Notes under the pieces: model-generated
Database searches by the model: none
Seen by the model: the letters and a program-made list of their open reading frames with translations, nothing else
Told to the model about the DNA's origin: nothing
Position numbers and translations under genes: made by a program
Shown: piece by piece, positions 1 to 1,741 of the stretch
Numbering within the stretch: the stretch's first letter is position 1
How the letters are laid out: each line of letters starts with the position of its first letter
Assembly (NCBI GenBank): GCA_001800245.1
Contig: MGVA01000061.1
Location: 1 to 64,000 of the forward strand
Direction: 5' to 3'
Source: Elusimicrobia bacterium RIFOXYA12_FULL_51_18
GTDB lineage: Bacteria; Elusimicrobiota; Elusimicrobia; Elusimicrobiales; UBA9959
Length of the DNA: 64,000 nt

Positions 1-191
1 CGAAAGCTAAGTGCCGTAATGGCTTGGCGTCCACTATAACCAGCATACAGTTTAAAGGTGGCACTTCTATAAACAGTTGAGTTGGCCAATTGGTTGAGGT
101 CGAAGTCTCCAAAAAGGTCAAAAGATATACAATCCGGCGTCGAATCACTATTGTATTGAATCGTTAAAGACAATGGTGTCCTTGACAGCAT
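1..191 (-). CDS. possible 5' end of a minus-strand gene running off the left edge
   Basis: Reading leftward from an ATG at 191-189, a frame stays open for 63 codons to the window edge. The predicted peptide has ordinary composition for an extracellular protein, with stretches such as FDLFGDFDLNQLANSTVYRS. There is no ribosome-binding site. The ATG directly follows the C-rich complement of the 12-G tract, and an in-frame TAG lies just beyond that tract. A slippage change in the tract would alter the upstream frame, so this may be the rest of a longer gene put out of frame. It may equally be chance. I recognise no family. Confidence 0.25.
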   Translation of the reverse strand, partial: MLSRTPLSLTIQYNSDSTPDCISFDLFGDFDLNQLANSTVYRSATFKLYAGYSGRQAITALSF

Positions 192-210
192 GGGGGGGGG
201 GGGCTATACT
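182..210 (+). promoter_or_regulatory. sigma70-type promoter with a poly-G spacer
   Basis: A perfect -35 hexamer TTGACA (182-187) and a -10 TATACT (205-210) are separated by exactly 17 bp, and 12 of those 17 bases are a pure G run. Transcription would start near 217, giving a leader of about 26 nt before the ATG at 243. A change in the G run changes the -35/-10 spacing, which is how the porA promoter of Neisseria is switched. Confidence 0.75.
192..203 (+). repeat. homopolymeric tract of 12 G in the promoter spacer
   Basis: Twelve consecutive G residues, the longest homopolymer I found in the window. It lies wholly between the promoter hexamers. Runs of this length are known hot spots for slipped-strand mispairing. 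They can also be miscounted in assembly. Confidence 0.9.
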
Positions 211-242
211 GTAAGTATCAAATCGTGCGTATAGGAGGAGTT

Positions 243-1190
243 ATGACCAGTTGGAAGAAATATGTGCTCGCGGCCGTGATGGTAACGGCGGCGTTGTTTG
301 CTTACAGCAGGAACTTACATAAGAACGTCCCACCTGATTTTAGGGACGCACCCCGTGATCCCGCGCTAGATACCCTTAAGGATATAAATCCTGCGGGCGT
401 TATTGGAGACGTTAAGGTCCCCAATATGCCTAAAATATCCAAAGGCTATGTCGCGGGGAATGATCCATCCGCCGGTGTGCCTACCAAGCCGGTTGAATGG
501 GTTACTATCACCGGCGGTAAGTTTAGAATGGGAACCGACAGCGGCGAGAACGGTTTTGAAAACGCCAAGCCGATCCACGAGGTCTCCATCAAAACCTTTG
601 CTATGTCTAAAACGGATGTGACCGTGGAACAGTACGCGGAATGTGTGATAAAAGGCGGGTGTACGGAACCGGCCACAGGCGACTATTGCAACTGGGGCGT
701 GGCAGGCCGCCAGCTTCACCCGATCAACTGCGTGGACTGGGATCAGGCGAGTAAATACGCCAAGTTCAAAGGCGGAAGACTGCCCAGCGAGGCTGAGTGG
801 GAATATGCGGCAACCAGCGGCGGCAAGAATCAGAAATACCCTTGGGGCAATGATGAGGCGACCTGTGACAAGGCCGTGATGTATGGCAATGGCGGTTACG
901 GTTGCGGTAAAAACAGTACGATGCCTGTGTGTTCAAAAACCGCCGGCAATACCGCGCAGGGTTTGTGCGATATGGTGGGAAATGTGTGGCAGTGGGTGCA
1001 GGACAAGTACCAGGATTCGTACAAAGGTGCGCCTGCTGACGGCAGTGCGTTTGAAGCTGCGGGCTCCCTCCGGGTGATGCGTGGCGGTTCCTTCGGCAGC
1101 GATGTCGCCAGTTCCCTGCGGGCCGGTTACCGCTACTCCAGCGTCCCTGGCGGCCGCTACGGCAGCCTCGGGTTCCGCCTTGCGAGGTAA
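243..1190 (+). CDS. FGE-sulfatase/C-type-lectin-fold protein, probable DGR variable protein
   Basis: A 315-residue protein with an N-terminal signal anchor (hydrophobic residues about 6-21). After a linker, an FGE-sulfatase (SUMF1-type) domain runs from about residue 85 to the end, with family hallmarks WVTITGGKFRMG, GGRLPSEAEWEYA, YPWGND, GNVWQWVQD and the terminal GFRLAR. The fold is shared by formylglycine-generating enzymes and by many DGR target proteins. The start at 243 is chosen for the AGGAGG at 233-238; an upstream GTG at 225 would lie on or before that site. The last 33 codons show the DGR variable-region pattern (separate entry). It is probably an exported or membrane-anchored display/binding protein rather than an enzyme. 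No sulfatase gene is nearby. The poly-G promoter suggests on/off or graded expression. Confidence 0.8.
   Translation: MTSWKKYVLAAVMVTAALFAYSRNLHKNVPPDFRDAPRDPALDTLKDINPAGVIGDVKVPNMPKISKGYVAGNDPSAGVPTKPVEWVTITGGKFRMGTDSGENGFENAKPIHEVSIKTFAMSKTDVTVEQYAECVIKGGCTEPATGDYCNWGVAGRQLHPINCVDWDQASKYAKFKGGRLPSEAEWEYAATSGGKNQKYPWGNDEATCDKAVMYGNGGYGCGKNSTMPVCSKTAGNTAQGLCDMVGNVWQWVQDKYQDSYKGAPADGSAFEAAGSLRVMRGGSFGSDVASSLRAGYRYSSVPGGRYGSLGFRLAR
1092..1169 (+). other. candidate DGR variable region (VR) in the target C-terminus
   Basis: Between RGGS and GFRLAR almost every codon at the positions known to vary in FGE-type DGR targets ends in C: ggc, agc, gtc, gcc, tac, tac, tcc, agc, gtc, ggc, ggc, tac, ggc, agc, ctc. 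That is what adenine-specific mutagenesis of AAC template codons would leave, because the first two bases scramble and the C remains. Invariant positions (R, P, G) use other third bases. I found no template repeat in the window. Confidence 0.55.
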
Positions 1191-1240: not shown

Positions 1241-1267
1241 CCGGGCGCGTGCGTAAGCCGCGCCCGG
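1241..1267 (+). other. 9-bp perfect hairpin downstream of the variable region
   Basis: CCGGGCGCG (1241-1249) pairs perfectly with CGCGCCCGG (1259-1267) around a 9-nt loop, 50 nt after the stop codon. There is no T run, so it is not an obvious intrinsic terminator. A hairpin/cruciform just downstream of the VR aids target recognition in the Bordetella phage DGR. The distance here is larger, so the role is inference. Confidence 0.45.
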
Positions 1268-1316: not shown

Positions 1317-1475
1317 ATGAAGCTTAAGATTTTTACTCTGCGTTTAAACCCGGCGACTGGACTTTTTGACGAGGGGGAACTTGCGAATTTTCAGTCGGGC
1401 AAAGATGTAATTGAAATTTCGGAACATTTCCTTGTCCACGAAAAGACGCCGACACTTTTGTTGGTACTGCGATAA
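1317..1475 (+). CDS. short DGR HRDC-accessory-like protein, probably truncated
   Basis: A 52-codon frame with a GGAG site 3 nt before the ATG. It begins MKLKIFTLRLNPATGLFDEG and continues with a FxxGKxVIEISEHFLVHEKTP stretch. As I recall, this resembles the N-terminus of HRDC-type accessory proteins encoded beside some DGR reverse transcriptases, where a motif like FTLRFDPxTGxFD is followed by an EHFFVHExTPYL element. Those proteins are normally over 100 residues with a C-terminal HRDC domain; here the frame stops after the first beta-rich unit. I read it as a remnant or minimal version. No RT or Avd gene follows. Confidence 0.45.
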   Translation: MKLKIFTLRLNPATGLFDEGELANFQSGKDVIEISEHFLVHEKTPTLLLVLR

Positions 1476-1741
1476 ACATTGGGCGCAATAGCTACAGATG
1501 GCAAAGGATTTGATAATGGAGTCGCTATTTCAGGATTCCAAAGACAGGCCTCTTTCGATAATTTCATTCCGGTTTCTCCCTCAAGTCTTGTGCTGCCAGA
1601 TTTCGCGGCAGAAAAAGGGGTTACAAATGAGCTTTCCGTGTACTATCTAAAGGAACTGGCTTCCTTGAGGGTTTTCTTGAAAAGCCGGTATAGAGGGGGC
1701 TTATGCTATTGTCAAGGGGGGGGGGGCTTGACAGATAAGAC
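1476..1741. other. apparently degenerate intergenic stretch with no convincing gene
   Basis: About 270 bp of AT-richer sequence. A frame of about 100 codons can be opened from 1479, but it has no ribosome-binding site, runs through a G11 tract and ends inside the following hairpin, so I do not call it. The position is where a DGR template repeat and reverse transcriptase would be expected after an accessory gene. I see neither a copy of the VR nor an RT catalytic motif. Confidence 0.4.
1716..1726 (+). repeat. homopolymeric tract of 11 G flanked by inverted TGTCAAG/CTTGACA
   Basis: Eleven consecutive G. The left flank is TTGTCAA and the right flank CTTGACA, so a -35-like TTGACA can be read outward on each strand. 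On the minus strand, TTGACA (1715-1710) is followed 17 bp later by TATACC. On the plus strand no -10 is present. Position between two hairpin/terminator structures suggests a switchable or decayed promoter module. Confidence 0.7.

Follow-up and report, generated by a model that had tools for sequence, protein, structure and literature searches.

A poly-G promoter spacer upstream of a diversity-generating-retroelement (DGR) target gene in Elusimicrobiota as a candidate expression switch

The closest described promoters are those of Neisseria meningitidis porA and Treponema pallidum TP0126, in which a poly-G tract lies in the spacer and expression has its optimum at 17 bp (PMC7864442). The closest described DGRs are of the HRDC type, for example in Treponema denticola, and combine a target of the FGE/C-type-lectin-type fold with an adenine-specific variable region (VR), HRDC, RT and a template repeat (TR) (PMC4891356); the main text of that paper mentions neither promoters nor homopolymers. 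In the system of the Bordetella phage BPP-1, phase variation affects the surface of the host and diversification the target of the phage (PMC10053308), whereas at the locus described here it would be the promoter of the diversified gene itself that phase-varies. Our searches of open-access full texts brought up no DGR target with a slippage promoter in front of it, and the open-access literature held nothing relevant on DGRs or phase variation in Elusimicrobia.

The window, meaning the whole stretch of DNA analysed, covers positions 1-64,000 of contig MGVA01000061.1, so that the upstream context consists of the 181 bp before the promoter. The assembly is about 90% complete (2.75 Mb, 69 contigs). 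The features of the locus are the following:

182-187, plus strand: -35 hexamer TTGACA, from the sequence, its position kept in relatives of the leader gene
192-203, plus strand: G12 tract, 12 of the 17 spacer bases (spacer 188-204)
205-210, plus strand: -10 hexamer TATACT, from the sequence
233-240, plus strand: ribosome-binding site AGGAGGAG, from the sequence
243-1190, plus strand: DGR target gene, 315 aa, with a membrane-anchor leader (M.SWKKY...PPDFRDA) and an FGE-sulfatase domain
1060-1186, plus strand: DGR variable region (VR), from its mismatches to the template repeat of the relative G057
1241-1267, plus strand: GC-rich hairpin CCGGGCGCG-tgcgtaagc-CGCGCCCGG after the VR
1317-1475, plus strand: HRDC accessory gene, cut off, first 52 codons only, from the alignment to the G057 cassette (L275)

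The first-pass annotation had described a perfect TTGACA and a TATACT, 17 bp apart with 12 of these bases being G, and all coordinates are exact on the sequence; the spacer reads GCAT-G12-C. As in porA and TP0126, a poly-G tract thus lies between the -35 and -10 hexamers, and with G12 in a 17-bp spacer it exceeds the homopolymer length of about 8 or more that marks promoters of this type. It is the longest G run of the assembly, followed by a G11 run only 1.5 kb away. Out of the 12 genome-wide matches to TTGACA-N15-19-TATACT, no other than the one at 182-210 contains a long G run. In 59 genomes of the family, the pattern TTGACA-G7-TATA gave 46 listed matches, including a few sites counted twice, compared to one for the reversed control pattern.

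The G11 run (1716-1726, plus strand) is positioned between the inverted arms TTGTCAA and CTTGACA (region 1687-1734). On the minus strand of this region a C11 run adjoins the -35 of a promoter-like TTGACA-17-TATACC, and no gene was found downstream of this possible promoter. A similar TTGTCAA-G7 is present in L275 ahead of a divergent gene, which we take to be brnT-like. Furthermore, a piece of 43-52 bp (window 83-134) is repeated on contigs C51 and C27 and in G003.

The target product carries an FGE-sulfatase domain (Pfam: PF03781, E=1.9e-52, sequence profile), and this profile match assigns it to the FGE/C-type-lectin-type fold of DGR targets. Its leader belongs to an N-terminal pattern common to the genes that share the promoter, M..WKKY.LAAV.VTAAGFAY...HRNIPSDFRDAV.D, and a 42-aa leader profile matches 30 of the 59 family genomes. 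An alignment of 16 homologues shows invariant and hypervariable codons in alternation over the C-terminal region; almost every hypervariable codon is NNY, the outcome that AAY templates would give. The template predicted from these homologue codons has a perfect 42-nt match in G057, and a leader-FGE gene with its own G10 promoter lies 2 kb upstream of this match. Scored against this TR of a relative rather than a TR of its own genome, the window VR differs at 25 out of 127 positions, and 25 of 25 differences fall on template adenines (P=9e-19). The gene had been called DGR-like in the first-pass annotation; with all mismatches at template adenines, and with intact cassettes that have the same promoter, we can be more definite: judged by its sequence, the window gene is a true DGR target.

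The 27-nt hairpin after the VR, a typical DGR element, is identical in the window and in two loci of relatives, L275 and L182. The DGR of Bordetella phage BPP-1 is also characterised by adenine-specific VR diversification and by a GC-rich hairpin after the VR, and the window shares both features. At a further locus, L145 (G045:C34:211500-227200), at least 15 leader-type genes are found in tandem on one strand, some of them with FGE variable regions and with the post-VR hairpin between genes. L145 is possibly a multi-target DGR array or a cassette store.

Close relatives had been proposed as a comparison for the tract length, and the tract is variable among them, ranging from G10 to G13 with the hexamers kept. 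Eight other leader-sharing genes have the same promoter with spacers of 16-19 bp, as read from draft metagenome assemblies with one genome per species. Four of these are paralogues in GWA2_56_46, a genome of the same genus, with G11 on contigs C30 and C20 (spacer 17 in both), G13 on C28 (spacer 19) and G12 on C19 (spacer 18), and the flank GGCCCTTGACA is common to all four. The others are found in G003 (G11, spacer 18), G015 (G11, spacer 16), G057 (G10, spacer 16) and on contig JAGUUY010000086.1, binned as Bacillota DeMMO5_7 (G12, spacer 17). Such length variation with kept hexamers, among relatives as well as among paralogues, is also characteristic of the porA/TP0126 type. All family hits with at least ten G's in the spacer are upstream of leader-type genes; for some leader genes a recognisable poly-G promoter was looked for and none was seen. 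The earlier claim of a phase-variable promoter is therefore well supported by the comparison of homologous and paralogous genes; slippage within a clone and an effect on transcription are what we infer from it.

Promoters of the form TTGACA-G9-or-more-TATACT are also found across many phyla, at least 116 of them (L157-L272), with a spacer mode of 17. Many precede secreted or lipoprotein-like genes, and where such a promoter is repeated inside a genome, the copies differ by a single G (SIG415, RGIG9201).

Our preferred reading, with a probability of roughly 0.75, is that the poly-G spacer is a switch for a DGR-diversified target and that in intact relatives it plausibly gates the machinery too. 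The promoter would be of the sigma70 type, with a spacer that G12 makes adjustable. Gain or loss of G's through slipped-strand mispairing would move the -35/-10 spacing away from 17 bp, and this shift would turn transcription of the downstream gene up or down, with the assembled 17-bp allele as the presumed strong or ON state. The product is predicted to be a membrane-anchored protein of the FGE fold, probably exposed at the surface, with a C-terminal VR diversified by a DGR. In contrast to porA and TP0126, the window promoter, from an uncultured member of the Elusimicrobiota, serves a DGR target and that of the relatives apparently a whole DGR operon, which it would switch.

Two intact cassettes in relatives show the architecture in full. 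L275 (G057) is complete, with a G10 promoter, target, HRDC (Pfam: PF00570, E=3e-16), Avd (Pfam: PF22296, E=3.5e-16; NF033474, E=3.6e-26), an RT carrying the IGNLTSQ motif, and TR. L182 has a G12 promoter, and all 17 mismatches between its own VR and its own TR are at adenines. All genes of the intact cassettes are on one strand with the poly-G promoter directly upstream, and no intrinsic terminator was found in them between target and HRDC; if the genes are transcribed as an operon, as this arrangement suggests, both expression and diversification could be under the switch. In intact relatives the promoter would then plausibly decide whether the variable protein is displayed and whether its mutating machinery is made. 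No relative was found on viral contigs. Like the HRDC-type DGRs of Treponema denticola, the Elusimicrobiota loci have the target fold, the adenine-specific VR and HRDC, together with RT and TR in the relatives. They differ in that the relatives have both HRDC and Avd, the poly-G promoter and repeats at the HRDC-avd junction, and in that the window copy has no Avd, RT or TR.

The alternative that survives best accepts that the tract switches expression, and takes the pairing with the DGR as incidental, the promoter being part of a leader module shared by many exported proteins, of which just some are DGR targets. It is compatible with a slippage switch and limits the DGR part of our reading. 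Poly-G or G-rich promoters do stand before leader genes without an FGE domain (M23 peptidase, clostripain C11, unknown), and GWA2_56_46 has several poly-G leader genes and no DGR RT at the search threshold. Against it, the complete DGR operon follows immediately behind the promoter in both intact cassettes, and a separate repeat is present inside the DGR machinery in several families. We regard incidental pairing as a serious contender, albeit one that we would not bet on.

Another explanation treats the G-rich spacer as static, with a role in the promoter through DNA shape, supercoiling response or regulator binding and no slippage. The best argument for this comes from the mraZ promoters of genus g13 in the same family (L060-L065, L069, L070, L072, L073, L075, L077), which have G7-G9 spacers of 17 bp in 12 of 12 examined cases, the G count shifting by substitution at constant length. 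A further class of G-rich spacers, TTGACAAAACCG-G-CTGTATAAT (L068, L071, L074, L083), is found in tandem in some genomes with no clear protein gene behind it, and its length mostly stays at 17. Moreover, several leader genes have interrupted G-rich spacers, e.g. G4-T-G7 or G9-A-G3, which fit a static role; they should slip less than pure tracts and may instead be locked forms. A G-rich spacer by itself is thus no proof of switching, given the constant lengths at mraZ and at loci without an assigned gene. However, the leader promoters vary by whole G's (16, 17, 18 and 19 bp) with hexamers and flanks kept, and these differences include the four paralogues in one genome. Among leader promoters with at least ten G's, 5 of 9 deviate from 17 bp compared to none of the 12 mraZ promoters (Fisher P=0.006, indicative only, as related sequences are counted as independent). 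Since mraZ is constant at 17 bp and the leader promoters are not, variable length is a property of the leader promoters and not of every G-rich spacer, and a purely static role appears unlikely.

Two further explanations carry little weight. On the minus strand an open reading frame in window positions 1-191 runs off the contig, and the tract could be the poly-C start of this gene (ORF 191-3), with a fortuitous likeness to a promoter; the frame does begin with an ATG at 191 beside C12, but with other tract lengths (10-14) the frame gains no more than 17 codons upstream, and the sequence upstream of the promoter diverges among relatives whereas promoter and leader are conserved; we rejected this reading as very improbable. 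Least probable of all is an assembly or sequencing artefact near the contig end: in its favour, the contig begins 181 bp upstream and several leader loci are close to contig ends, but G10-G13 recurs at the same place in independent assemblies from different projects.

The genome of the window itself has a broken cassette. Past the target, the window can be aligned with L275 up to about position 1475, inside HRDC, and continues with unrelated sequence. The HRDC remnant lacks the domain proper and for this reason gives no Pfam hit, and Avd is absent downstream of it in the window. No DGR RT was found in the genome's own assembly, and no TR was matched in its own genome at up to 3 mismatches. The only RT found there (L039, G000:C68) was rejected as a DGR RT, being of the retron type II-A/St85-like with an NDT effector. 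The window copy is therefore probably an orphan target, as far as its sequence tells. As the cassette is broken inside HRDC, just the expression switch of our preferred reading is probably left in this genome, unless an RT acts in trans, which is conceivable since the assembly may lack about a tenth of the genome. The coupling of phase variation with DGR diversification, which the first-pass annotation had placed at this gene, is accordingly found in the cassettes of relatives and not in the window copy.

A second repeat is found within the machinery of related cassettes. In 6 out of 9 DGR cassettes of the same RT clade, from several families (L321, L322, L323, L324, L326 and L275), the 3' end of HRDC, immediately ahead of avd, contains a repeat: G11 in G190, G13 in G234, G15 in G214, a GA run in G175, G11 in G219 and C13 in G057. 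HRDC stops 3 nt before the avd start in G234 and G175, and reads into avd out of frame in G190, G214, G219 and G057. Within 74 kb of fourteen DGR loci, the only G or C runs of at least 11 are four G tracts at the HRDC-avd junction. The differing repeat types at one place suggest selection for slippage, and the repeat is possibly a second switch. The window has no such repeat because its HRDC is cut off upstream of the position.

Combining both repeats, the DGRs of Elusimicrobiota could be contingency loci with two slippage gates, a wider proposal that we put forward tentatively and at somewhat less than even odds. The poly-G spacer would switch the target, and possibly the entire DGR operon with it, and the repeat length at the junction would determine whether HRDC stops just short of avd, and is coupled to it, or runs into avd out of frame. 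A cell would in this way alternate between showing a hypervariable surface protein, diversifying it and keeping it silent.

Bacteria are well known to localise mutation in two ways, by phase variation and by DGR hypermutation. If their pairing is true, covariation of tract length with VR diversity would be testable with ordinary metagenomic long reads, and the pairing would explain how costly targeted mutagenesis could be confined to a fraction of cells.
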